From positions 1-22,018 of IMG/VR virus record IMGVR_UViG_3300028837_002052: a DNA stretch of 22,018 bases, one strand, 5' to 3'. The translations under genes and the position numbers were made by a program. This document shows positions 1,448 to 21,139 of this stretch, piece by piece. The first letter of the stretch is position 1, and each line of letters begins with the position of its first letter. A model generated the notes under the pieces. That model was given only the letters and a program-made list of their open reading frames with translations, made no database searches and was not told the origin of the DNA. Source of the DNA: a virus.

Positions 1448-2752
1448 TCATCTCCCCGCCGTAATCTCCAAAATAACCTGCCTCCCCCCCCTGCTCTTCA
1501 TCACGGCAAACAACTCCTCCCGATCAAAGTACGTCCCAATGACATCCGGCATCGGCTGCACAGAAGTGACTCCACCGCCACCACCCCCACCACCTGCACT
1601 GCTTGCACTCCCTTTGAACAACCCTGCGATCCCTCCGAAATCCTTCCCGGCAATCCCCCCGCCAAAGATCAACGATGACAACCCCGCCTCGACCAAACTC
1701 GCTGCCAGCGACCTCGCGAGACTCCTCCAACTCGCCTCACCCGTCATCACGATATCGCTCAGCGCCCGGACAAAACTCTGCTTGAACTGCTCGACGTACC
1801 TCTTCTGCTCCTCGAAACTCTTCTCGCTCTCCTTGGCGAGATTCCCATATTCATCCTGTAACTTCTTCAGGTAGAGAGCATACGTCTGCGCATCGAGATA
1901 GCCTGTTTGATAATACATCGTCGCGGCCGCCATCAATTCCTGGAGCCGGTAGGCGTCCGTCTTCACCGCCTCAACGATCTTCTTCAGTTCAGCCTGGCGC
2001 TTTCGGGCGGCCACACCCGCCTCCTGAAACGTCTTCAGCCTCTGCTCTTCAATGTGCCTCAGTCCCTGGAGTTCGATGACCGCTTCCCTCATCCTATCAA
2101 TCCACTTCTGGTCGACCTCGATGCCTTCCTTCGTTGCTACGGTCATCGCTTCCCGGATTAATCGCTCTTGCTCGAGCTGATTCCGGATCGCGGTCCGTGC
2201 TCCGCCAACGGCACGCAGCATCCGGATCTCACCCTCGATCATCTCCTGCTGCTTATCCCAAGCCTTCACCCACTCCTCCAGGATCGGCCCCTGCCAAACA
2301 TGCGGCGTTCCCCCCAAGCCTTCCTTTTCCTGCTTTTTAACATCATACAAAGCATAACGTAGCCTTTCAATCTCTCGTTCAACCTCTTTCCGCTTTGCTC
2401 TGATCTGCTCGACAGTTCCATCAGGAATAAGCTGGATTTGCCCCCATAAGCTGTACCCCGATGTCTTCGCATCATAATTAGCAATATCCCTATCGAGGCT
2501 CTTTAACTCCTCTCTTAGACTTTTCAGTTTCTTCTCAACACCAATCTGAAACCAACCTGCAAAACCTTCGTCAATGAATTTACTCATCCCTAAGAATGCC
2601 CGCTGTGTATTAGCCCCCAATCGTCCCATCAAAACATCCCAACGCTTCTGTAACTCATCAGCCTTCTTGATTAGTTCTTCACTGAGGACCTGTCCTGCTG
2701 CATGTGCCCTTCTGGCGAACTCATCCAACGCAGCGCCTCCGCTTTTCAACAT
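1448..2752 (-). CDS. Tape measure protein, C-terminal part (broken gene)
   Basis: The frame is open up to 2845, but protein-like sequence begins only at MLKSGGAALDEFARRAH near 2752, in a different frame from the N-terminal part (2721-3287). The order is: a helix region typical of tape measures (GQVLSEELIKKADELQKRWD), about 300 residues of charged coiled coil, a hydrophobic segment ASWRSLARSLAASLVEAGLS, and a Gly-rich tail with GGGGGGGGV. Tape measures fix tail length and pass through the tail on DNA ejection. The two parts together are about 620 residues, short for the class. Compared with family memory, some 30-40 residues that usually carry an F..FG..G...L core are missing at the junction. 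It may be a dead gene, or an artefact of a mixed assembly. Confidence 0.8.
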   Translation of the reverse strand: MLKSGGAALDEFARRAHAAGQVLSEELIKKADELQKRWDVLMGRLGANTQRAFLGMSKFIDEGFAGWFQIGVEKKLKSLREELKSLDRDIANYDAKTSGYSLWGQIQLIPDGTVEQIRAKRKEVEREIERLRYALYDVKKQEKEGLGGTPHVWQGPILEEWVKAWDKQQEMIEGEIRMLRAVGGARTAIRNQLEQERLIREAMTVATKEGIEVDQKWIDRMREAVIELQGLRHIEEQRLKTFQEAGVAARKRQAELKKIVEAVKTDAYRLQELMAAATMYYQTGYLDAQTYALYLKKLQDEYGNLAKESEKSFEEQKRYVEQFKQSFVRALSDIVMTGEASWRSLARSLAASLVEAGLSSLIFGGGIAGKDFGGIAGLFKGSASSAGGGGGGGGVTSVQPMPDVIGTYFDREELFAVMKSRGGRQVILEITAGR

Positions 2753-3287
2753 CCGGCAAATCCCCCGTCGTCCGGATTCGACCATCACTATCCCGGAGCT
2801 CAATCCCCATCTCCTCGAGCGCGGCCTTCGCCTCGCCCGTGCCACTGGCAGCCTCCCCTATACGGCGGACAAAACGCTGCAACGCCATATCCATCTTCTC
2901 CTGCTGGATACCCAACTCAGTGCCGGCATACCTCATCTCTTGCAGGAGATCGGTCGTTACCCCCAGACGGTCAGCTACCCGGCCTAATTGGGCGGCCGTA
3001 CTCACGGCATTACTCCCAATCCGCAAAAGGCCAGCCGCTCCGGCAATGGGAAGCATGGCCCTCATCATCCCCATCGCAGCCGTGCTCGCCGCTCCCATGG
3101 CTTTGTTGTATCGCGTGAGCTGATTTTTGGAGTTCTTCATCTGGGCGTCTTGCCGAGCCATCTTCTGCTGGAGTTGTCCTACCTTATTTCGAAACTTCTC
3201 GGTGTTCTTCTCGGCATCGAGCAGCCCTCGCCGGTAAGCCAGCGTCTCGGCAGTCAACTTCACGGCCAACTTACCCAACGTCGCCAT
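2721..3287 (-). CDS. Tape measure protein, N-terminal part (frameshifted)
   Basis: The ATG at 3287 follows GAGG at good spacing. Residues 1-85 form a charged coiled coil (RRGLLDAEKNTEKFRNKVGQ), then a small hydrophobic stretch AAMGMMRAMLPIAGAAGLL. Next comes the conserved tape-measure block LGVTTDLLQEMRYAGTELGI with MDMALQRFVRRIGEAASGTG and ELRDSDGRIRTTGDLP. After GDLP the frame leaves the family pattern and ends with a few basic residues. The matching continuation lies in another frame, so I read this as one gene split by an out-of-frame deletion near 2752-2765. I see no slippery heptamer at the join, so programmed shifting is unlikely. Confidence 0.8.
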   Translation of the reverse strand: MATLGKLAVKLTAETLAYRRGLLDAEKNTEKFRNKVGQLQQKMARQDAQMKNSKNQLTRYNKAMGAASTAAMGMMRAMLPIAGAAGLLRIGSNAVSTAAQLGRVADRLGVTTDLLQEMRYAGTELGIQQEKMDMALQRFVRRIGEAASGTGEAKAALEEMGIELRDSDGRIRTTGDLPDVEKRRRCVG

Positions 3288-3298
3288 CAATCAACCTC

Positions 3299-3397: not shown

Positions 3398-3933
3398 TCA
3401 CTTGTTCTTCTCACTTAGAAACACAATCCACTCCGCCAGATCCCGCACCGTCATCCCCTCCAGCAGTTCTCTCCGGGTTTTCCCCAGCCGTAGCGCAAGC
3501 TCGAAACTCATCCATCGCCACGGCCGGGCTCGGAGTTTTTTCCCAAATCCTCCTGTGACTCTTTCGTTGCTCCATTGATCTCGAGGACCCGGGTCAGAAT
3601 CCTACGATATCCCACCAGCGGCTTCTTCAACAGGGCAACGGTCGCCTCCTGCAACTCCTCGTTGGTCTCAAAAAGCAGCTGCCCCTTTTCGTCCACCAGC
3701 GATCGGGCGATCACCATCCCCCACCTCTCAACCCTCAAACCTCCCGGAGGTTTCGAACCTCCGGGAGGTTTAGGTCCGGAAGGTCCAGATCCAACCAGCG
3801 CACTATCAAACTCATCCAGATACTGCGCCGGCAGCAGCCGGAGACGCACCTGGCCAAGCTTACCCCACTCCGGCACCTCGACGGTCTCCACGCGCGTCCC
3901 ACATTCCCCCAACAACGCCTCTTTACTCAGCAT
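3398..3933 (-). CDS. Tail assembly chaperone fusion (gpGT-like) made by -1 frameshift
   Basis: The upstream chaperone frame contains the heptamer A_AAA_AAC at 3541-3535, correctly phased (GGA AAA AAC). A -1 slip there enters a second frame of 45 more codons that ends with TGA at 3398-3400. The extension includes MSFELALRLGKTRRELLEGM and TVRDLAEWIVFLSE, the pattern usual for the T part of lambda-like G/GT chaperones, which lie just before the tape measure gene as here. The fusion would be 178 residues from the ATG at 3933. Such fusions bind the tape measure and recruit tail-tube subunits during assembly. I could not find a clear downstream stem or pseudoknot by eye. Confidence 0.78.
3508..3933 (-). 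CDS. Tail assembly chaperone (gpG-like), unshifted product
   Basis: This is the 141-residue zero-frame product. I chose the ATG at 3933 (MLSKEALLGECGTRVETVEV) because AAAGGTGG lies at proper spacing; an in-frame GTG at 3945 is also open. The N-terminal pattern LSKE.LL...ETVEVPEWG is typical of siphovirus tail assembly chaperones. In the middle, PSGPKPPGGSKPPGGLRVE is translated from a pair of family A palindromes inserted in frame. The family normally runs straight from the first helices to the ARSLVDEKGQLLF segment. The C-terminus ends soon after the slippery site. It likely acts with the frameshifted form on the tape measure. Confidence 0.8.
   Translation of the reverse strand: MLSKEALLGECGTRVETVEVPEWGKLGQVRLRLLPAQYLDEFDSALVGSGPSGPKPPGGSKPPGGLRVERWGMVIARSLVDEKGQLLFETNEELQEATVALLKKPLVGYRRILTRVLEINGATKESQEDLGKNSEPGRGDG
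3535..3541 (-). promoter_or_regulatory. -1 ribosomal frameshift site A_AAA_AAC
   Basis: The minus strand reads GGA AAA AAC in the chaperone frame, giving the classical heptamer A_AAA_AAC. Slipping back one base opens a frame with a conserved chaperone C-terminal pattern. Position, phase and product all agree with the known G/GT arrangement before tape measure genes. Confidence 0.78.
3736..3772. repeat. Family A palindrome pair inside the chaperone gene
   Basis: AACCTCCCGGAGGTT (3738-3752) and AACCTCCGGGAGGTT (3756-3770) are separated by TCG. They form a perfect 15-bp inverted repeat and are read in frame as Pro-Pro-Gly-Gly repeats in the chaperone protein. Confidence 0.93.
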
Positions 3934-3959
3934 ATCATCCCCCACCTTTCTATCCGCTT

Positions 3960-4073
3960 AACCTACGGGAGGTTTATATTCTAACCTCCCGGAGGTTCGC
4001 TTTACCTTCACCCTTGGCGTCTTTGCGCCTTTGCGTGAGACTTTTTCTTCTCACACTTCGCTCTTCGTACTTC
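3960..4073. repeat. Composite C-B-A-A repeat module
   Basis: Between the tail protein stop (4076) and the chaperone start, in transcript order: C (4073-4051), B (4050-4012), A with C centre at 3983-3997 and A variant AACCTACGGGAGGTT at 3960-3974. The last palindrome ends 27 nt before the chaperone start. Confidence 0.9.
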
Positions 4074-6380: not shown

Positions 6381-6508
6381 AACCTCCGGGATGTTTTGAT
6401 TTCAACCTCCCGGAGGTTCTCTCTTTAGTCTTTTCCCTTGGCGACTTTGCGCCTTTGCGTGAGATTTCATCCTTCGCACTTCATCCTTCGCTCTTCGTCC
6501 TTCGTACT
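6381..6508. repeat. Composite C-B-A-A repeat module
   Basis: In transcript order: C (6508-6469), B (6468-6436), A with C centre (6404-6418) and A variant AACCTCCGGGATGTT (6381-6395). The C copy overlaps the TGA stop of the HK97 gp10-like gene; the last A ends 18 nt before the next start. Confidence 0.9.
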
Positions 6509-6946: not shown

Positions 6947-6995
6947 AACGTCTAGACCCGAAACCCTATACCCTACACCCTACACCCTAGACGTT
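6947..6995. repeat. Family D element with 9-bp terminal inverted repeats
   Basis: AACGTCTAG (6947-6955) and CTAGACGTT (6987-6995) are exact inverted ends around an ACCC-type core with ACCCTATACCCTACACCC. This looks like a complete 49-bp unit. It lies 19 nt before the gp10-like start. Confidence 0.82.
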
Positions 6996-7143: not shown

Positions 7144-7479
7144 TCATCCTCTCTTTTCCATGCACATCAAATCCAACTCCACGTGCCTTTCCTCAGGGTC
7201 GATCACAAACTTAATCCAATAGATCCGCTCCCCCCATTTTACCCGCCAATCTTTTCCATTGATGCAGCCGTAATACCGGATATTGACCCTCGTGCTGACC
7301 TCCACCTGGGCCTGCTGCGCGGCCAGAAAGTCCCGGCCTCCCAGCGGCTCAACGAAAGCATGGACCTTGAGATAATCAGCCCAACTTTCCTCCTCCTCGC
7401 CAAAGGAATTCTTCGTGACGGTCCGGTGCTGTATCGTCACCAGCTCCCGGCGATCCCCTATCTTCACTTTCTTCTTCAT
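7144..7479 (-). CDS. Head closure (head-tail adaptor) protein, SPP1 gp16 type
   Basis: This 111-residue protein reads IGDRRELVTIQHRTVTKNSF, then EEEESWADYLKVHAFVEPLG and GRDFLAAQQAQVEVSTRVNI. It ends with a strand set DWRVKWGERIYWIKFVIDP and a short hydrophilic tail. This is the classic head-tail adaptor pattern (L..R..I........D..G.....W......V.A.V.P..G.E...A....). It caps the connector and receives the tail. Start and stop overlap with the upstream adaptor by four bases (ATGA), so translation is likely coupled. Length fits the family. Confidence 0.9.
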   Translation of the reverse strand: MKKKVKIGDRRELVTIQHRTVTKNSFGEEEESWADYLKVHAFVEPLGGRDFLAAQQAQVEVSTRVNIRYYGCINGKDWRVKWGERIYWIKFVIDPEERHVELDLMCMEKRG

Positions 7480-8429: not shown

Positions 8430-8435
8430 CTTCAC

Positions 8436-8468
8436 CCCTCACCCCACACCCCAGACCCGAAACCCCAT
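8436..8468. repeat. Family D repeat
   Basis: The gap holds CCCACACCCCAGACCCGAAA and adjacent ACCCC units, a family D copy that closely resembles the one in frame inside the terminase ORF near 18345. Confidence 0.75.
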
Positions 8469-8701: not shown

Positions 8702-8738
8702 AACCTCCGGGAGGTTTCCTTCTAACCTCCCGGAGGTT
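8702..8738. repeat. Family A palindrome pair
   Basis: AACCTCCGGGAGGTT (8702-8716) and AACCTCCCGGAGGTT (8724-8738) form a perfect 15-bp inverted repeat with a 7-nt spacer, 33 nt before the next start. Confidence 0.93.
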
Positions 8739-9207: not shown

Positions 9208-9240
9208 AACCTCCTGGAGGTTCTACAGCTCCGGGAGATT
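9208..9240. repeat. Family A pair, degenerate
   Basis: AACCTCCTGGAGGTT at 9208-9222 is followed by a decayed copy AGCTCCGGGAGATT near 9227-9240. The first is 20 nt before the next start. Confidence 0.7.
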
Positions 9241-9833: not shown

Positions 9834-9900
9834 AACCTCCCAAAGGTTTCAAACCTCCGGGAGGTTAGGCTAGACCCAAGACCCCTCGCCCGAGATCCCG
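9834..9900. repeat. Family A pair plus family D copy
   Basis: A variant AACCTCCCAAAGGTT (9834-9848) and AACCTCCGGGAGGTT (9852-9866) form an opposite-centre pair. A family D-like run with AGACCCAAGACCCC lies at 9872-9900, next to the upstream gene's stop. Confidence 0.78.
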
Positions 9901-10403: not shown

Positions 10404-10439
10404 AACCTCCGGGAGGTTCCCTTTTACCTCCCGGAGGCT
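10404..10439. repeat. Family A palindrome pair
   Basis: AACCTCCGGGAGGTT (10404-10418) and TACCTCCCGGAGGCT (10425-10439) form an opposite-centre pair between the capsid stop and the next start, 42 nt before that start. Confidence 0.88.
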
Positions 10440-12715: not shown

Positions 12716-12775
12716 AACCTCCCGGAGGTTTCAAGCCTCCGGGAGGTTCACTCGCTTTCAAACCTCCCAGAGTCT
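12716..12775. repeat. Family A pair plus a third decayed copy
   Basis: AACCTCCCGGAGGTT (12716-12730) and AGCCTCCGGGAGGTT (12734-12748) are an opposite-centre pair 15 nt before the protease start. A third copy AACCTCCCAGAGTCT (12761-12775) touches the portal stop codon. Confidence 0.9.
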
Positions 12776-14094
12776 CATTGAAGGTTAAATCTCCCATTGT
12801 CGCCCGCTCGGACTAGGGCGCCCGACTGCGTCTCGACCTCTCCATCAGAAGATCGAGAATCTCCACCACCCACGGCCTCCATGTTCTTCGGCCGCCAGTA
12901 ATCCTCGCCCAACCCCTGGGGAATGGGATTCAGGTTCTCAAGATCTCGGATCTCATCGGCGTTATACACACCAATATCGCGCATGATCCGGTAAAACTGC
13001 CCCCGTGTCTTTGCATCGGCACGCAAGAGAGCGTTGACCTGAAACTCCATGAAATACTCGGGGTAAGACCGTTCATTGATCGTAAGCAAAGTCCTGTTCA
13101 ATTCCTGCTCGATATTCACTAGATCGGGAGCAATGGAATACGTCAGATATCCTATCGATTGCTGCTCGATCCCCGTGCCCCAACTTGTAGACTTCTCGAC
13201 GTCACCAATCATATACGGCGGAATCCCAAAAAGACGGGCGATCTCCGAAACCTGAAACTTCCTCGTTTCCAGAAATTGCGCCTCCTCGGGCTTGATACTG
13301 ATAACCTCTAACTCGAGCCCCCCCTCAAGGATAGCCGGATTAAAGAAATTCGTGACCCCCCCATGGTCCTTAAACCATCCTTCGCGTAAATCCTTCTTTG
13401 CATCGGGAGTCAACTTCCTCGGATGCTTCAGCGCAACGATCGGCATCCCTCCACTGCCAAAGAAGGCGGCACCATATTGCTCGGAGGCCAAACTCAGCCC
13501 CACAGACTGCATCCCCAGACCGATCCGGGAAAGACCTACAACTCCATCCGTGGACAAACCTCGAATGTGAAGGATTTGATTCGGTGGATAACGCTTTCTC
13601 TCGCCTCCTTCGAGACGGACTTCATAAACAATCTGTTTACTTTTCGCATCCCTCTTCGGTTGTTTCATCCGATCGGGATGGATGGGCCACAAGGCTCTCA
13701 CTTGGCCACCATAGTCCCGCTCGATCCAAGCATAGGAATTACCACGCAGGAGACGGCAAACTTCCATGTACTCCCGGAAACGAAAACTCGTCATTTCGGG
13801 ATTCGGTTGATTGTGAAGAAGAAAATAGAGAGCATGATTGTAGGCCCGCTCCTTACTGTTTCGGCCTTGAACCAAGCGCTGAAAAAGAAAAAGCGGTAGC
13901 ATGGCAACGGTCGCGGAACGAATGCGAACACACGCATAAACGGCCGTCGCTTGAAGAGCACTCTCGGGAGAAAGACGGATACCTGATGCATTGGAACCAA
14001 AGGGTACGGGGTTGTACCAGAAATCATCTGTCTCGCTTGGTTGGCTGAAACGAGAGGGACCCACCGGACTGAGAAGACGATTGAGAAGCCCCAT
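12775..14094 (-). CDS. Portal protein, HK97 family
   Basis: The protein has 439 residues. It begins MGLLNRLLSPVGPSRFSQPS, then has SPESALQATAVYACVRIRSA, typical of HK97 portals, with HNQPNPEMTSFRFREYMEVC and RGNSYAWIERDYGGQVRALW. Later come GVVGLSRIGLGMQSVGLSLA, FFGSGGMPIVALKHP, FQVSEIARLFGIPPYMIGDV and WGTGIEQQSIGYLTYSIAPD. All are strong family blocks, including the clip and stem region. It forms the dodecameric DNA channel at one capsid vertex and docks terminase. Start and upstream stop overlap as TAATG. Length is usual for the class, and no damage is seen. Confidence 0.96.
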   Translation of the reverse strand: MGLLNRLLSPVGPSRFSQPSETDDFWYNPVPFGSNASGIRLSPESALQATAVYACVRIRSATVAMLPLFLFQRLVQGRNSKERAYNHALYFLLHNQPNPEMTSFRFREYMEVCRLLRGNSYAWIERDYGGQVRALWPIHPDRMKQPKRDAKSKQIVYEVRLEGGERKRYPPNQILHIRGLSTDGVVGLSRIGLGMQSVGLSLASEQYGAAFFGSGGMPIVALKHPRKLTPDAKKDLREGWFKDHGGVTNFFNPAILEGGLELEVISIKPEEAQFLETRKFQVSEIARLFGIPPYMIGDVEKSTSWGTGIEQQSIGYLTYSIAPDLVNIEQELNRTLLTINERSYPEYFMEFQVNALLRADAKTRGQFYRIMRDIGVYNADEIRDLENLNPIPQGLGEDYWRPKNMEAVGGGDSRSSDGEVETQSGALVRAGDNGRFNLQ

Positions 14095-14363
14095 TAACCC
14101 TTGCCACCCCCATCATCCTTTTTGTGCAGATTCGGATAGAGCCCCAGGAAAAGACAGAGGACCCCAATCGAAAGATAGGATCCCGGGGCCCATACGACTT
14201 GAAATCCCTCCCACAAAAGCCACCCCCCAACAATGACAAGAACATCCTGGTGAACATCGGCCCTGCAACCCTGGAGAACAATCCACTTCAACCCCTGCCA
14301 GAGACTGCGACCCTGAAGACCAAACCATTTTAAGCCCTGACGGACACTGCGACCCACAACCAT
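14094..14363 (-). CDS. Small membrane protein next to portal
   Basis: From the ATG at 14363 the product has 89 residues. After two similar blocks, VRQGLKWFGLQG and LWQGLKWIVLQG, comes a hydrophobic region DVLVIVGGWLLWEGFQVVWA with SYLSIGVLCLFLGLYP, two likely membrane helices, and a basic/Gly tail. Small two-helix proteins are often encoded directly before siphovirus portal genes. I recall the general layout, but the function is unknown; a holin-like role is possible but not shown. A GTG start at 14411 would add 16 residues read from repeat DNA, so I prefer the ATG. The stop TAA overlaps the portal ATG. Confidence 0.65.
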   Translation of the reverse strand: MVVGRSVRQGLKWFGLQGRSLWQGLKWIVLQGCRADVHQDVLVIVGGWLLWEGFQVVWAPGSYLSIGVLCLFLGLYPNLHKKDDGGGKG

Positions 14364-14390
14364 CAACTCACGAACCCTTCTAATTTCACC

Positions 14391-14483
14391 CTCCACCCTT
14401 TCACCCCTCACCCTTCGCTTCTTCTTCTTTTTTCGTACTTCGTACTTCGCTCTTCATCCTTCCCTCTTAACCCTTCACCCTTC
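14391..14483. repeat. Family C and CACCCTT repeats
   Basis: The plus strand shows TTCACCC heptamers on both sides of TTCGTACTTCGTACTTCGCT, as in the 5347-5470 cluster. The left edge overlaps the possible GTG-start extension of the small membrane protein. Confidence 0.82.
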
Positions 14484-14489
14484 AGAAGG

Positions 14490-14524
14490 TTCCCTCCCGG
14501 AGCCGGGGGAGACCCCGGGAGGAA
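14490..14524. other. GC-rich hairpin
   Basis: CTCCCGGAGCCGGGGGAG and ACCCCGGGAGGAAC can fold with arms CTCCCGG/CCGGGAG and an inner GC-rich stem. No T run follows on the minus strand, so it is not a clear terminator. The outer arms resemble the family A core. Confidence 0.5.
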
Positions 14525-14533
14525 CATTTCTGC

Positions 14534-14550
14534 TGCGCCTGATCGGCGCA
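14534..14550. other. Inverted repeat TGCGCC-N5-GGCGCA
   Basis: A perfect 6-bp inverted repeat with centre TGATC lies between the hairpin and the possible promoter. It could be an operator, but nothing links it to a regulator. Confidence 0.35.
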
Positions 14551-14582
14551 ACATCCGGTGAAAAGGATCACAACGCAACAAG

Positions 14583-14613
14583 AATATGCTGTACCAGCGA
14601 AATCTCATGTCAA
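14583..14613 (-). promoter_or_regulatory. Possible promoter before the membrane protein and portal genes
   Basis: A perfect -35 TTGACA (14613-14608) is followed after 19 bases by CATATT (14588-14583), which matches TATAAT at four of six positions. The spacing is long. It lies in the longest gene-free interval, ahead of the head operon, which makes a promoter sensible. Confidence 0.3.
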
Positions 14614-14689
14614 CCCATATCTGGTGTTTGGATGAACTTTCGGCGCAAAATCTGCCTAATCGGCTGGAATACTAGGGGTTAGATACACC

Positions 14690-14765
14690 AACCTCCCAGA
14701 GGTCCCTTCCATCCTCCGGGAGGCTTTACCTTCTCCTTCACCTTAGCGCCTTAGCGCCTTTGCGC
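14690..14765. repeat. Repeat cluster B-A-A
   Basis: In transcript order: B (14765-14739, with GCGCCTTAGCGCCTTTGCG), A variant ATCCTCCGGGAGGCT (14711-14725) and A variant AACCTCCCAGAGGTC (14690-14704). This A pair is not near a start codon, unlike most others. Confidence 0.85.
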
Positions 14766-14767
14766 GA

Positions 14768-15028
14768 TTACTTCTTCTTCTGTTCCTTTGTCACTTTGAC
14801 ACTCTGCAACTTCGCCCCTCCCCCTTCAAACAACGGCTGCCCATCGGCGCACATCGCGACATTCTCCACCTTCACCGTCTCGCTCGCCCGGATCGTCAAC
14901 CTGGCAATCTGTTGATCCAAGCCGGCCTCCTGCAAGCCTCGGGCACACGCCTGCATGACGGCCTGCGGATCCAAATCCCGGGTAACCTCCTCATTCCGCT
15001 CAATCTTAATCGTTACGACATCAGCCAT
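14768..15028 (-). CDS. Small hypothetical protein, 86 residues
   Basis: The protein begins MADVVTIKIERNEEVTRDLD, then has a helix PQAVMQACARGLQEAGLDQQ and strands RLTIRASETVKVENVAMCAD, and ends in a lysine-rich tail KEQKKK. It looks like a compact alpha-beta protein. I do not recognise the family. A GGAGG lies eight bases before the ATG at 15028, which strongly supports real translation. It is placed between the HTH gene and the portal region in the packaging part of the genome. Confidence 0.62.
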   Translation of the reverse strand: MADVVTIKIERNEEVTRDLDPQAVMQACARGLQEAGLDQQIARLTIRASETVKVENVAMCADGQPLFEGGGAKLQSVKVTKEQKKK

Positions 15029-15042
15029 CCCATCCTACCTCC

Positions 15043-15123
15043 TTTTCTTAGCGCCTTAGCGCCTTTGCGTGAAATGTTTTATTTCATCCTTCGCTCTTCG
15101 TACTTCACACTTCGTCCTTCATT
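15043..15123. repeat. Family B and C repeats
   Basis: C copies (15123-15083) overlap the 3' end of the HTH gene, followed in transcript order by B (15075-15048, GCGCCTTAGCGCCTTTGCGT). Confidence 0.88.
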
Positions 15124-15324
15124 CTTGATCGCAAAAATCCTCTCCTGAAACCCTTCCACCCGATGCTTCCAATCATGGACCTTGTGTATCGGAATCCCCA
15201 ACATCTGCGCGGCCGCCACCTCGCTCTTCCCCTCGCGAAGTAGATCGAGAAATCTCGCCCGCCGCCAAGCACTCGTCCTCCCCATCACCCGCCGCTTCAT
15301 GCTCCAGCCCCCATTGATCGCCAT
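15079..15324 (-). CDS. Small helix-turn-helix protein with repeat-coded C-terminus
   Basis: The protein has 81 residues. Residues about 20-60 (RRARFLDLLREGKSEVAAAQ, MLGIPIHKVHDWKHRVEGFQ) match the helix-turn-helix pattern of AA..LGI....V..W, as in terminase small subunits and homeodomain-like phage proteins that end in W....D..F. From about residue 69 the sequence NEGRSVKYEERRMK is translated family C repeat. The ATG at 15324 has AGGGAATGA before it; a second ATG at residue 9 also has a GGAG-like site. A DNA-binding role is well supported. A role as small terminase is a guess from position, though the usual place before the large terminase is not kept. Confidence 0.66.
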   Translation of the reverse strand: MAINGGWSMKRRVMGRTSAWRRARFLDLLREGKSEVAAAQMLGIPIHKVHDWKHRVEGFQERIFAIKNEGRSVKYEERRMK

Positions 15325-15346
15325 TCATTCCCTGTAGCAGCTCATC

Positions 15347-16177
15347 TCAATGTTCCTTTTGATAGCATCTTATAATGGCCGGCCTGATCCATTCCCGTTG
15401 TAGTTTCTTCCAATCACGATTTGGTGTTCTCCCGCTTTCATCCCGGTAAAGCATTGCGAATGGAACAAACCCCGCTTCCCATGCCTGCTGAAACCGCTTT
15501 CTCGCCGCTTCAAAAGTATCTCTTGGATACCCAATCAGCACATAACTATAAAGATGATGCTTGCGAGTGAATCCTGTTGCTCGAAGAAGTTTCCCAGCAT
15601 CTTCAAGAGGTTGTAGATCTTCTGGAGCATCGTAAGCAAGAAATATTCGATCTGTTCCTATTTCACGCAATGCTCGAACATGCCATTCCTGAAGCCTCCT
15701 GGAGTCAAGACCACCAGTAAAGACCGGTCTCTTTCCTTGATCTGCAAGCATGTCAAAAACAGCTCGAATATGTGATTCAGAACAGGCGAGTAAATTATTA
15801 TCGAGGACATTATAACCGCATGAGATCGGTAGCTCACGTATTTCGCCCTCACGCCTTTTGGCTAAACAAAACCAGCAATTGTTCGGACAACCCCTCGAAG
15901 TAATGACATAGCCCGGCTTGAGATACTGACCGGAGACAAATGGCCCACCCCGATCATCTAAGGCAGGGCCACCAATCAATACCTTCGGATGTATATCACT
16001 CCATAATCTATATAATCGTCTCGCCGCCAAGAGATCCCAACTAAATGTCACGCTTATATGAATTTCATCACAGTCCGGTGGATCAAACATTTTGGGATCG
16101 CCAACACTTACAAGATCATCGTTTGGGGTGGCATTCGTGCGTCCTGGAAATACTCTACAAATAGATCCCTTTCCCAT
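15347..16177 (-). CDS. Radical SAM protein carried between terminase and portal genes
   Basis: The product has 276 residues. The iron-sulfur motif is Cys97-x3-Cys101-x2-Cys104 (SRGCPNNCWFCLAKRRE). Before it stands a domain with FPGRTNATPNDDLVSVGDP and DEIHISVTFSWDLLAARRLY, which may be a degraded B12-like fold. After it come YNVLDNNLLACSESHIRAVF, FTGGLDSRRLQEWHVRALRE, IFLAYDAPEDLQPLEDAGKL and SYVLIGYPRDTFEAARKRF, usual barrel elements. Family members cleave S-adenosylmethionine to a radical; the substrate here is unknown. I start at the ATG at 16177, because the longer GTG start at 16240 adds repeat-coded residues. The gene looks AT-richer than its neighbours, as expected of cargo. Confidence 0.85.
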   Translation of the reverse strand: MGKGSICRVFPGRTNATPNDDLVSVGDPKMFDPPDCDEIHISVTFSWDLLAARRLYRLWSDIHPKVLIGGPALDDRGGPFVSGQYLKPGYVITSRGCPNNCWFCLAKRREGEIRELPISCGYNVLDNNLLACSESHIRAVFDMLADQGKRPVFTGGLDSRRLQEWHVRALREIGTDRIFLAYDAPEDLQPLEDAGKLLRATGFTRKHHLYSYVLIGYPRDTFEAARKRFQQAWEAGFVPFAMLYRDESGRTPNRDWKKLQREWIRPAIIRCYQKEH

Positions 16178-16198
16178 CCTCTTCCCAATTACTCTTGC

Positions 16199-16243
16199 AC
16201 TTTCGTCCTTTACCCCTCTGCCCCTTTGCCTCTTTGCCACTTG
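16199..16243. repeat. Family B variant between terminase and radical SAM gene
   Basis: The plus strand has CCCTCTGCCCCTTTGCCTCT and TTGCCACTTG units, the CTCTTTGCCAC variant of B. The repeat has an open frame joined to the radical SAM gene and creates a false upstream GTG start. Confidence 0.7.
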
Positions 16244-16246
16244 TGC

Positions 16247-18469
16247 TCAAAACAATCTCGACACCAACGGCCCATCCATCGCCACCGCCTCATTCCGCAG
16301 CATCGCTGAGAGTGCCATCACCACGACCACGAAACCATCAATCTTCCCTTGGCTGTTGGCCTTGTCCGGCTTGAGATTGCCGGCGGGATCCTTCTTCACC
16401 ACGACGTTGTCCACGTTCCAGCGGAGCACCGGATGCCCCATATGATTCATCTTCTTTTCAAGCAGCCTGCGCTCGAACTCAACCATCGGCGCAGCGAACG
16501 ACAAAAACCCCATCCCCATCTCGACCATCGGCAGCCCCTCTTCATAGAGCTCCCCCGCCAACTGCGCCCCTTGGAACAACCGATCGTAAGCGATCTCCAC
16601 TAGGTTGAAATGCCCGGCGTCCTCGATGACTTGCTTTCGGATGAAAGCATAATCAACGGCGTTCCCCGGCGTCACACGAAGAAAACCATGCCTGACCCAC
16701 ACCTGATATTGATCGGCATAACGGTTCTCCGGATCGTACACCCTTGCCTCGGGACACCAGGCGCGCAACAGAATGTCGAGAATATCACTGTCATCATCGC
16801 GCGGAAACACCATGCCGAATGCCGTCAAATCAGAAACGGCGGAGAGATCCAGCCCAGCATACCCACGGCGGCCGGCAAGTTCCTCCTCGCTCACTCTTCC
16901 ATGATTATTCTCATCCCACAGATCCAACTTGATGAACCGGACGGCTTGCTGCACCCATTGGCAAAGGTAAAGTTGCCGGAAGGAATTCTCCTCGGCAGGC
17001 AGGTTCTGTGCCTTCTGGCATTTCTCTCGCATCTCGTCAATCTTGCGGAAAACACCCAGGGCAGGATTACAACGGCGCCAAACGGTCTCATCCTTCCAAT
17101 CGGCCTCCTTCGGCGCAGAATAGATGATCGCAAGAAAACTCGGGTCCTCGATACTTCCATTGATGACACGATCGGCATATTCATGCATGATCCCACAGAT
17201 CGACAGCGGATCGGTGCCCGACGTCGTCATCATATACATCAGCGGTTGCCGGCGGGCCCCCATCGACGTATCGAGCACATCGAACAACCGCCTGGTTTTC
17301 TGTGTATGAAGTTCATCAAAGAACACACCATGCGCGTTCTGACCATGTTTCGTGTTTGCATCAGCGGAAAGCACCTGGTAGCTGCTTTGGACAATTCGAT
17401 GATGAAGACGCTTTTCAGCTCGATAGATGGCCACCCGGGCATCCAGCATTGGACTTTGTTCGATCATCCGGACGGCCGGCCTGAAAACATGCATCGCCTG
17501 GTCCCGGGCGGCCGCGGCATTGTAAATCTCGGCCCCAGGCTCTCCATCGGCAAAATAGAGCAGCAGCGAGATGGCGGCAGCTAATAACGTCTTCCCATTC
17601 TTCCGGGGAATCTCAACGTAACACTTTCGATAGCGGCGCAGCCCATCAGCACGCACGGTCCCAAACAACTTTCGGATGATCCCTTTCTGCCAAAACATCA
17701 AACAGATCGGCAGCCCGGCCCACTCCCCCTGGTATTGTTTGAGGGACTGAATAAACCGCTCTGCCTTATCCGCCAAAGCACTATTGAAATAATCAACGCT
17801 CAATCTCCTGGAGGTCCCCTCCCCCTTCACTGTTTCTTCTTTTTTTTCGTCCTTCGTCCTTCGCTCTTCGTCCTTCTCCGTTTCCCTTTTGCCTCTTTGC
17901 CACTCTGCCTCTTTACCTCTTTCTCTTAAAGGCTGGCAAGCCGCCGGCAACATCCCCAACAGCGGACAACTCAACTCCCTGATGTTTCCATCCTCCGGGA
18001 CGTTCAACCCCAACCTCTCTAGATACACCCTCTCACTCTCAAACTGCTCCTCGTAGAAAATCCCCCGGGTCAGCCGGGGCATCCCAAAATGGTAATCTCC
18101 CGGCGCCCAGGGCCCAATCTCCTCACTCGGCAGCGATGCGGGCCTTTCCCGGATCGGCTCGATCTTCAGCGGCCACAGCGGCATCTCAATCTGTCGTCTC
18201 GGTTCGGGAGCATCGAATTCCCACCAAGCCCAGGGCCTGGTCCCCGGTCTCCTCGCAATGTGCTCCAACAAGAGACGTCCCCCATGCCTCTCCCAAACCT
18301 TGCAAACCCATTTCCGATTCTGCCCTCGTTCTTTAGACCCCACACCCGAAACCCCAGACCCAAAATTCGGCTTCTCCCCATCCAACCACCACCCCTCGAG
18401 CAGGAACAACCTCTCCTGCTCGGTCAGCAGTTGTGGATCCACCCTCCTCCTTACCCGCCTCCGCTTCAT
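16247..18469 (-). CDS. terL: Terminase large subunit, fused through repeats to an upstream accessory protein
   Basis: One frame of 740 codons. Residues 223-740 form a complete HK97-type large terminase of 518 residues: Walker A EIPRKNGKTLL (Lys293), Walker B GVFFDELH (Asp385, Glu386), coupling motif MTTSG (415-418), and an RNase H-like nuclease with GLDLS (Asp541) and KIDGF (Asp711). It packages DNA and cuts concatemers at the portal. Residues 1-160 resemble a separate small phage protein that is normally its own gene upstream (ARRPGTRPWAWWEFDAPEPR; FESERVYLERLGL). The link, residues 161-222, is translated repeat DNA (TEKDEERRTKDEKKE). Terminase may instead start at the TTG at 17803, next to AGGAGA, or at a nearby GTG. 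No catalytic residue seems lost. Confidence 0.93.
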   Translation of the reverse strand: MKRRRVRRRVDPQLLTEQERLFLLEGWWLDGEKPNFGSGVSGVGSKERGQNRKWVCKVWERHGGRLLLEHIARRPGTRPWAWWEFDAPEPRRQIEMPLWPLKIEPIRERPASLPSEEIGPWAPGDYHFGMPRLTRGIFYEEQFESERVYLERLGLNVPEDGNIRELSCPLLGMLPAACQPLRERGKEAEWQRGKRETEKDEERRTKDEKKEETVKGEGTSRRLSVDYFNSALADKAERFIQSLKQYQGEWAGLPICLMFWQKGIIRKLFGTVRADGLRRYRKCYVEIPRKNGKTLLAAAISLLLYFADGEPGAEIYNAAAARDQAMHVFRPAVRMIEQSPMLDARVAIYRAEKRLHHRIVQSSYQVLSADANTKHGQNAHGVFFDELHTQKTRRLFDVLDTSMGARRQPLMYMMTTSGTDPLSICGIMHEYADRVINGSIEDPSFLAIIYSAPKEADWKDETVWRRCNPALGVFRKIDEMREKCQKAQNLPAEENSFRQLYLCQWVQQAVRFIKLDLWDENNHGRVSEEELAGRRGYAGLDLSAVSDLTAFGMVFPRDDDSDILDILLRAWCPEARVYDPENRYADQYQVWVRHGFLRVTPGNAVDYAFIRKQVIEDAGHFNLVEIAYDRLFQGAQLAGELYEEGLPMVEMGMGFLSFAAPMVEFERRLLEKKMNHMGHPVLRWNVDNVVVKKDPAGNLKPDKANSQGKIDGFVVVVMALSAMLRNEAVAMDGPLVSRLF
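17802..18004. repeat. Repeat block inside the terminase reading frame
   Basis: In transcript order: a decayed A pair (ATCCTCCGGGACGTT 17990-18004 and AACTCCCTGATGTTT near 17973-17987), a B variant (about 17930-17885), C copies (about 17876-17848), and A AATCTCCTGGAGGTC (17802-17816). The block has the make-up of an intergenic module but no stop in the terminase frame. Confidence 0.88.
17990..18469 (-). other. N-terminal accessory domain of the terminase ORF
   Basis: These first 160 codons look like a once separate gene. The PGTRPWAWWEFDAPEPR block followed by an FESE..YL.RLGL ending is, to my memory, a stand-alone phage protein coded just before the large terminase. Residues about 38-52 (GSGVSGVGSKERGQN) come from a family D repeat, so this part too has been invaded. 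Function unknown; it could help packaging. Confidence 0.6.
18325..18365. repeat. Family D copy in frame inside the terminase ORF
   Basis: CCCACACCCGAAACCCCAGA on the plus strand is close to the intergenic copy at 8436-8468. It is read as Gly/Ser/Val-rich residues 38-48 without a stop. Confidence 0.75.
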
Positions 18470-18543
18470 CCCTTTTCCCTAATCAATCTGCTTTCTTTTC
18501 TCCAGCAATCCTTTTACTGATTCTATGGTTTCTACAATCCATT

Positions 18544-18885
18544 TCACTGCCATGCACTCCTGCAAATCTCATAAACTTTCCTGATCATCGGCAACTTACT
18601 CTCTTTCTCCTGATCTCTTCTTTTTGCTTTCCACCAATCTATATCAACTTCCAACAGCCGATTCACAACTGCCTTAACTATCTTTAGACTATTAAAATTA
18701 CTAATAGCAAATCCAGTCGGCAAATGAATCAGCCACCATATCTTTCTTTCCTCATCCTTCCTTGCCCCAAAGTATCCTGAACAATGCAACCACCCTGGAT
18801 GCTTCTCCCAAACAGGGTCGGAGCTCTCATCAATAGGTTGGACTTTGCATTTAACAACGCCTTTTACCCATTCACCTTTTCCCAT
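18544..18885 (-). CDS. Hypothetical protein, AT-richer than neighbours
   Basis: The 113-residue product has KCKVQPIDESSDPVWEKHPG, WLHCSGYFGARKDEERKIWW, LIHLPTGFAISNFNSLKIVK and AVVNRLLEVDIDWWKAKRRD. It looks like one small alpha-beta domain rich in Trp, with Lys, Ile and Asn codons that are A/T-rich compared with nearby head genes. I do not recognise the family. The W.HCSG..G pattern with a later LPTGFAIS recalls small proteins of phage accessory regions, without a named role. AAGGCGA precedes the ATG at 18885. A recent acquisition is inferred from composition. Confidence 0.6.
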   Translation of the reverse strand: MGKGEWVKGVVKCKVQPIDESSDPVWEKHPGWLHCSGYFGARKDEERKIWWLIHLPTGFAISNFNSLKIVKAVVNRLLEVDIDWWKAKRRDQEKESKLPMIRKVYEICRSAWQ

Positions 18886-18904
18886 TCGCCTTCCCCTTTT
18901 TACC

Positions 18905-18942
18905 TTTTATTCTTTTCTCGTACTTCGCTCTTCGTCCTTCTT
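18905..18942. repeat. Family C copy
   Basis: CGTACTTCGCTCTTCGTCC on the plus strand follows the stop of the ASCH-like gene directly. Confidence 0.82.
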
Positions 18943-19654
18943 AAATCATCCTGAAGTTGATGACCCACACCCACGGATTCGCTTCCCAAGATATACCTCG
19001 CTTCGCATTCAGAGAATCCCACAGAGAGGCGAACGACATCCCGGCTGAATCCTGTGTCACTTCACACACGCCATTCCGAATATGTTCATAATCAGGCCAA
19101 CCAGCATTGCACCGGAAGCCATAGGCAATACCTTCATCCACTGCATCCTCTTCTGAAATGTCCTGCAATCGTTCGACACGAACATCCCTGATCTGCAATA
19201 CAGTTCGCGCAGCCCATCGGGGCATGAATATCGATGGCCGAGTTTTCCCAATGATTGCCGGTTTTGTTTTATAATCCTGTCTGCCAGCAAGATATACTAT
19301 AGGTGCAACTTCAGGATCGAGCCCGCTGGGTTTGTAAAGATCATACATCCTGTGGGTTGCCCAAGCCTCCCGCACCCACAACCGATCTCCTACCCAGCCA
19401 TGCGGACAACCAAATCCAGTTGCCGCCGCCTCGGGGATATCCTCAAAACCATCAGGATTTATGTATTGGCACAAATCGACCGCCCTCCACCCACCACCAG
19501 GATGACGTCCTATAAACCATGACTCAGCCGGGTAATAGGACGTTCCAAAAGGCTCAGGTGGTTTTTTAATGATCCGCCGCGTTTGATGCTTCAACCCCAT
19601 CCTGATGGCACATACCATTAAACTTGAGAAAAGAATCGGCCTTTCAATCCTCAC
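18941..19654 (-). CDS. ASCH/PUA-like phage protein
   Basis: The protein has 237 residues. It has MRIERPILFSSLMVCAIRMG with LKHQTRRIIK near the start, then GDRLWVREAWATHRMY, RPSIFMPRWAARTVLQIRDV, VERLQDISEEDAVDEGI and SFASLWDSLNAKRGISWEAN, ending PWVWVINF. Each of these is a block of the phage proteins related to the ASCH RNA-binding superfamily, with the typical K.(Q)TRR, GD.LWVRE and LW..NNKRG-like motifs. Their role is unknown; nucleic-acid or modified-base binding is assumed. The GTG start at 19654 overlaps the end of the upstream gene by 11 bases, with GGGGGAGGTG as ribosome site, so translation is probably coupled. Confidence 0.84.
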   Translation of the reverse strand: MRIERPILFSSLMVCAIRMGLKHQTRRIIKKPPEPFGTSYYPAESWFIGRHPGGGWRAVDLCQYINPDGFEDIPEAAATGFGCPHGWVGDRLWVREAWATHRMYDLYKPSGLDPEVAPIVYLAGRQDYKTKPAIIGKTRPSIFMPRWAARTVLQIRDVRVERLQDISEEDAVDEGIAYGFRCNAGWPDYEHIRNGVCEVTQDSAGMSFASLWDSLNAKRGISWEANPWVWVINFRMI

Positions 19655-20153: not shown

Positions 20154-20268
20154 CCTCACTCTTGACATCTTTGCGTCTTTGCGTGAGATATTTTCGTCCT
20201 TCATCCTTCGTACTTCGCTCTTCATACTTCATACTTCGTCACCCTTCGCTCTTCGCTCTTCATCCTTC
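20154..20268. repeat. Family B and C repeats entering a coding end
   Basis: C copies (20268-20196) start inside the DUF5131 gene's 3' end and give its last residues; B (20190-20161, with TCTTTGCGTCTTTGCGTGAG) follows before the next start. Confidence 0.9.
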
Positions 20269-20975
20269 CATGCAGGCATCTCATTCCAGGTCCTGCCCTC
20301 AAGCAACCTACCCGCCTTCTTCTTGTTCACCCCACCCCACTGCTTGAAGAAGAACGGAATCCCTGCATCGATACACTGATCCCGGATGTCGATCACCCAA
20401 GCCGGTTCCATCGGCCGCGCACCCGGCCCCGACTCCCCCCCTACGATTACCCAATCAATACCATCCAGAGCCAAATCCGGCAGCGGCCCCAGCAGTGGCT
20501 CGAATGATACAAACTTAATCCATGCCTTCGACTTGAGAAGCTGTTCAACACGCCAAAGTTGATAACTGTCTTCCACACTCACACCCATCCACATATGCGA
20601 TTCCCAAGAGAGAGCATCTTTATAATCCAACATCCACCACGGTCTCTTAGTGAGAATCTGATAGCGGTGCCAACCAGCCCGATTCATCACATCAAAGATC
20701 TGAAATAGAAAACCCTTCGGAATGGCTCGATGAAATAGATCACTCATCGAGCAGACAAAGATGGTCCGTGGTCTTTTCCACTTCAGGGGCAGCTCAAGCC
20801 TTTCAGGATGCAGCATCAGGTCAAAGTGATGCGGCGCCTTTGGATAACCACACCTGCCGGCAAGCCGTTTCGCCATCCGCTCAGCGTAGCAATGCTGGCA
20901 TCCGGGGCTGATCCTGGTACAACCCGTCACTGGATTCCACGTCATCTCCGTCCATTCAATCTTCGACTTCCCCAT
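20229..20975 (-). CDS. Phage Gp37/Gp68 family (DUF5131) protein
   Basis: The product has 248 residues from the ATG at 20975. It begins MGKSKIEWTEMTWNPVTGCT, with the typical cysteine set Cys19-x6-Cys26-x2-Cys29 (GCTRISPGCQHCYAERMAKR). Other family blocks are RTIFVCSMSDLFHRAIP, YQILTKRPWWMLDY, HMWMGVSVEDSYQLWRVEQL, FVSFEPLLGPLPDL and DWVIVGGESGPGARPMEPAW. The three cysteines and the barrel-like blocks suggest a relative of radical SAM proteins; the reaction is unknown. I chose this start over an upstream one because GGGGA lies just before it and the family begins here. The tail KDEERRAKGDEV is translated family C repeat replacing or extending the normal end. Confidence 0.9.
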   Translation of the reverse strand: MGKSKIEWTEMTWNPVTGCTRISPGCQHCYAERMAKRLAGRCGYPKAPHHFDLMLHPERLELPLKWKRPRTIFVCSMSDLFHRAIPKGFLFQIFDVMNRAGWHRYQILTKRPWWMLDYKDALSWESHMWMGVSVEDSYQLWRVEQLLKSKAWIKFVSFEPLLGPLPDLALDGIDWVIVGGESGPGARPMEPAWVIDIRDQCIDAGIPFFFKQWGGVNKKKAGRLLEGRTWNEMPAWKDEERRAKGDEV

Positions 20976-20979
20976 CAGC

Positions 20980-21105
20980 TCACTTCCCCTTATTCTTCCT
21001 CCGACTCTCAAGCACAAATCCTCGCAGCGGGCCGGTCTCACACCAGCCATGTCCCACGTTGCTGAGCCGATTGCGCAATCGACTAGTGGGCTTATTTTCC
21101 AGTCC
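20980..21105 (-). other. Possible decayed small gene, no ATG
   Basis: An open frame of about 41 codons without ATG reads ENKPTSRLRNRLSNVGHGWC and ends in FVLESRRKNKGK, just before the DUF5131 start. The composition is protein-like, but only CTG, TTG or GTG starts exist. It may be a remnant. Confidence 0.22.
21068..21081. promoter_or_regulatory. 14-bp perfect palindrome, possible operator
   Basis: CGATTGCGCAATCG lies between the secreted-protein gene and the DUF5131 gene. Two direct AGTGGGC copies stand close by (21085-21091 and 21108-21114). A regulator site is possible but unproved. Confidence 0.3.
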
Positions 21106-21139
21106 TCAGTGGGCCTGTCACCCACCGCCGCTGCGAGTT

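Follow-up and report, generated by a model that had tools for sequence, protein, structure and literature searches.

The Rickettsia palindromic elements, like other small repeats of bacteria, form in-frame fusions to ORFs (reviewed in PMC2229807). The TAACTGA heptamers of the Beggiatoaceae are mostly intergenic and are located upstream of start codons, sometimes entering the ends of ORFs (PMC4679880). Slippage on a run of A residues is exemplified by Citrobacter tssM1 (PMC4256274), and that of Thermus dnaX is discussed in PMC5009743. The locus described here lies in a stretch of viral DNA of 22,018 nucleotides (IMG/VR record IMGVR_UViG_3300028837_002052, positions 1 to 22,018; hereafter the window), in which a minus-strand ORF (18469-16247) translates to 740 residues with zero stops. 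Its N-terminal part, the accessory half, is followed by a link in which several types of repeat are translated, and its C-terminal part is a large terminase (TerL). In the following paragraphs we will discuss how this joined frame may have arisen and what is likely to be made from it.

An initial annotation of the sequence had proposed a stop-free frame running from the accessory gene into TerL. This frame is confirmed by the 740-codon translation and by a separate IMG/VR record (L009), which corresponds to window positions 13312-19459 at 100% identity over 6148 bp and contains neither a stop nor a frameshift in the link. A sequencing slip in one record is weakened as an explanation by the identical contig; the joined frame is thus not a single-record error, with the proviso that both records may stem from related samples. 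No phage record covered 80% of the 740-residue query, no TerL relative of more than 50% identity was found besides the identical contig, and the literature searched yielded no known TerL fusion. One 733-codon frame (G469) was considered as a fused relative; it matches weakly (E 8.7e-4) and contains two internal stops, and was left out of the count. In the data searched, in which the bacterial genomes were samples of phyla, no repeat-free relative encodes a 740-residue fusion, and relatives of each half stand alone, which agrees with the proposal that elsewhere each half is encoded by a gene of its own.

The C-terminal half (16247-17830, minus strand) was assigned by Pfam and PHROG as a large terminase with TerL_ATPase and TerL_nuclease domains. 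The Pfam domains cover residues 260-726 and the PHROG TerL profile (phrog_9) residues 210-728; with scores of 87 bits for PF03354 (cut-off 23.7) and 120 bits for PF20441 (cut-off 24), the protein is a TerL of the HK97 type. By sequence, 6z6d is its closest solved relative (E 1.3e-67). When the whole ORF was modeled, most ten-residue blocks between approximately residues 231 and 730 had pLDDT values of 77-96, and most of residues 1-223 fell below 50, the accessory half having been modeled without aligned relatives in this case. The terminases of Firmicutes phages, at approximately 45% identity, start near residue 213-214 of the window ORF, and the annotated TerL CDSs of two relatives measure 1602 and 1593 bp (533 and 530 residues). 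Among 79 TerL relatives from IMG/VR the longest possible N-terminal extension is 105 residues, and the median first ATG lies nine residues upstream of the position corresponding to residue 223; no relative of the accessory half was found near TerL in these 79 loci within the fetched flanks. A stand-alone TerL frame of approximately 530 codons is usual, if not strictly defining, and the window frame has 740. Residues 223-740 had been described as a complete terminase; a complete HK97-type TerL is indeed present, but its homology begins nearer to residue 214 than to 223. The TerL ORF is separated from a small-terminase-like ORF by a radical SAM gene (15347-16240, minus strand), which is unusual company for a packaging module.

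The accessory half (residues 1-166; 17972-18469, minus strand) was aligned with eight stand-alone relatives (L015, L016, L017, L022 and L024-L027). The family is recognized by the motifs PGTRPWAWW and ESExxYLxRxGL, both present in the window, and P75, G76, R78-W83 and L150 are invariant in the nine aligned sequences (alignment A2). For residues 1-163 neither Pfam nor the phage records gave a match, and the best PHROG match has an E value of 0.18; four other members of the family likewise match no Pfam family above the cut-off. A separate model of the accessory half is weak (pLDDT 64), and a fold search with it gave no match. The accessory half is a member of an undescribed family of small proteins, relatives of which were found in viral contigs and in bacterial genomes through pattern and profile searches. 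All of the genuine relatives are stand-alone, in stop-free frames of 109-330 codons. At five loci (L015, L031, L032, L052 and L056), though not for all relatives, the gene immediately follows that of a terminase small subunit (TerS; phrog_83); PHROG does not identify the window gene upstream of the accessory half (18544-18885) as a terminase small subunit. The accessory half had been regarded as a stand-alone terminase-proximal protein, and this is right in kind, given the five TerS-adjacent loci, but none of the accessory relatives seen precedes a TerL of the window's family.

Read from the accessory side, the region between the halves opens with a degenerate double palindrome (AACCTCC.GGAGGTT, twice; family D7) at 17975-18004, with a score of 20 versus a background maximum of 10; it still lies inside the accessory half and is translated as residues 156-165. 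Some 12 residues without a match follow, and then an octamer-type repeat (CTCTTTGC on the plus strand; family D6), located at 17873-17920 on the minus strand by motif scan and translated as the EAEWQRGKRETEK region. A heptamer-type repeat (CTTCGTC or CTTCGCT on the plus strand) at 17845-17876, minus strand, is translated as KDEERRTKDE and falls within a 72-nt T-free run (17830-17901). Beyond it are a run of eight A (17840-17847), a stretch that is C-rich on the plus strand, and finally a single palindrome, also degenerate (17803-17817; score 10 versus a background maximum of 8). The link of 62 residues, which had been read as translated repeat throughout, is mostly spacer repeat, but residues 167-178 or thereabouts match no repeat family. 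Nor are the repeats confined to the link, since the accessory half contains, in addition to the double palindrome, a GGGTCTGGGGTTTCGGGTGTGGGG-type element at 18337-18361 (minus strand; residues 37-45), with a score of 17 versus a background maximum of 10 in 194 coding tiles; members of this family are also found at 493-512, 6956-6989 and 8434-8462.

The repeat types of the link recur in other spacers of the window. The closest copy is a paralogous module on the plus strand (14404-14462) that is 85% identical to the link and has a T run of 6, not 8. The heptamer did not occur in other IMG/VR contigs, nor in 297 genomes from the phylum of G001 or 195 from that of G005, and another module pattern gave zero viral matches. 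Codon scores across residues 161-220 are 0.01, -0.26 (residues 181-200) and 0.06, while most TerL blocks score 0.07 to 0.43; these low values, together with the shared repeats, fit a former spacer. Repeats occur between genes and also in frame inside ORFs 3508-3945 and 16247-18469, the former containing a double palindrome (3738-3770) translated around KPPGGSKPPGG. The elements inside the accessory half indicate that repeats do enter coding sequence here, and they might have entered the existing linker of an old fusion that arose independently of them; every relative found of either half is unfused, however, and we give this explanation very little credence.

How much can be concluded from the absence of stops was estimated by simulation. 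The coding strand of the link contains 11% T, and a frame of 170 nt remained open in 10% of simulations with the dinucleotide composition of the window and in 17% with that of the link, so that the openness of the link alone is weak evidence; the idea that it is strong evidence by itself was dropped. Stops are absent only from the frame common to both genes; the remaining frames have 1 and 2. The lost stop of the accessory gene and the agreement in frame remain to be explained.

Among lengths of 5-12 only an A run (coding strand, minus) of 5, 8 or 11 keeps the joint frame. A run of 7 or 10 A brings the accessory frame to an end after 213 or 214 residues, at a TGA that overlaps GTG 17830, and with 6 or 9 it ends after 224 or 225 residues; a run of 6, 9 or 12 leads to a stop at the TGA just beyond TTG 17803. 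Separate proteins would result if the run varies, through mutation, transcription slippage or a miscount, 7 or 10 A giving a coupled GTGA gene pair. It is congruent with such a pair that GTG 17830 sits at the TerL start of the relatives, that another 4-nt overlap occurs in the window (7476-7479), and that the paralogous module has 6 T. On the other hand both contigs carry eight A, a close relative with a different run length was not found, and a GTGA overlap may arise by chance; we consider this alternative somewhat unlikely. The repeat-derived run might also act as a slippage switch like that of Thermus dnaX, eight A yielding a tethered motor and slipped transcripts a free accessory protein (213-225 residues) plus TerL from the overlapping GTG, in a set ratio. 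Such a switch seems to us quite improbable. In another part of the window the overlapping ORFs 1448-2845 and 2721-3290 (minus strand) resemble one tape-measure-type gene split by a frame change near 2750.

Two codons were considered as starts for a separate TerL. GTG 17830 (17828-17830, minus strand; residue 214) matches the TerL start of the relatives in position and forms a GTGA overlap with the out-of-frame TGA at 17829-17827; TTG 17803 (17801-17803, minus strand; residue 223) was the candidate of the initial annotation, which also mentioned a nearby GTG. By a simple estimate of duplex energy against the 16S tail, the Shine-Dalgarno interaction is -2.0 for GTG 17830, -4.8 for ATG 18469, and -10.3, at a spacing of 11 nt, for TTG 17803; the quartiles of the internal background are -5.1, -3.1 and -1.7, which places GTG 17830 in the weaker half. 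In the predicted RNA structure a small hairpin joins the GGAGG preceding TTG 17803 to CCUCC, and the TTG was rejected as an obvious start because its Shine-Dalgarno sequence would be held in this structure; folding of the start region overall is not unusual (z -0.17). Judged from these sequence features, position favors GTG 17830 and Shine-Dalgarno strength favors TTG 17803; separate synthesis of TerL from GTG 17830 is possible.

The palindrome AACCTCCNGGAGGTT is found upstream of eight gene starts, mostly approximately 15-40 nt away (1352-1366, 3983-3997, 6404-6418, 8702-8738, 9208-9222, 9834-9866, 10404-10418 and 12716-12748). It carries a Shine-Dalgarno-like GGAGG together with its own complement, and may form a translation-control hairpin. 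Since such palindromes precede several gene starts, the degenerate palindrome at the TerL N-terminus (17803-17817) stands roughly in the position of a leader element.

Because the Shine-Dalgarno sequence of GTG 17830 is weak, TerL need not be made separately, and the phage might have no TerL other than the fusion. A further alternative is an obligate and selected fusion, in which an accessory domain tethered to each TerL subunit acts on the motor via a flexible, repeat-derived link. The absence of stops between TerL and a domain that elsewhere neighbors TerS, the intact TerL domain annotation and the weak GTG signal would all agree with this. Codon usage in the link, however, is not of the coding type, the relatives found are all unfused, and the accessory domain has only its weak model without a fold match, from which we judge a selected fusion to be unlikely.

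Our preferred explanation, in which we place about even confidence, is a near-neutral read-through of the spacer that yields the fusion and probably also a separate TerL, most likely from GTG 17830. The spacer repeats between the accessory gene and TerL would have become coding; the coding strand of the spacer contains little T, which keeps stops rare. No stop belonging to the accessory gene remains, and the sole stop-free frame is that of both genes. Ribosomes starting at ATG 18469 would run on into TerL to make a protein of 740 residues with a charged and probably flexible link, and TerL would probably also be initiated within the spacer, GTG 17830 being the most likely site. We surmise that the fusion is a recent, nearly neutral by-product and not a selected new motor. 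Other ORFs of the window also end or start in repeat: the C-termini of the terminase-small-subunit-like ORF 15079-15324 and of the phrog_2045 ORF 20229-21125 are translated repeat, as is the N-terminus of the radical SAM ORF 15347-16240. The proposal that repeats create the fusion is, on the evidence of the sequence, partly supported: they appear to have been permissive, the spacer being stop-poor and the stop of the first gene missing, while a stronger role is unsupported.

Should the fusion be produced and prove functional, stop-poor intergenic repeats would have supplied a ready linker and joined two whole genes in a DNA-packaging motor. If it is not made, stop-poor spacer repeats can mislead automatic annotation into fusions that have no existence as proteins. 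In either case the locus is small and testable, and reveals an undescribed family beside terminase small subunits.

As with the Rickettsia palindromic elements, partly palindromic repeat DNA is translated within genes and tolerated. The Rickettsia-type repeats are single elements of approximately 100-200 bp, generally situated inside a single gene or at its end, whereas in the window several short repeat types bridge two complete phage genes; the window contains palindromes of 15-33 bp and short tandem repeats, whereas the hairpin-forming mobile elements of the Rickettsia type are long (105-146 bp). The Beggiatoaceae TAACTGA repeats resemble those of the window in being short and located in spacers, with some running into ORF ends. 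Forward TAACTGA units, however, contain stops in all frames, while the window repeats are T-poor and stop-poor on the coding strand, with the consequence that genes can merge. As in the slippage genes, the A run has nearby stops in both other frames, so that two length variants are conceivable; it consists of eight A, versus 11 and 9 in the tssM examples. The terminase itself has the complete ATPase and nuclease domains of the HK97-type TerL proteins (PF03354/PF20441, phrog_9, 6z6d), but unlike in these the open frame extends 213 codons upstream into the accessory gene. That repeat DNA can become coding sequence is already known; what is new here is that it bridges two complete genes, one of them a terminase.
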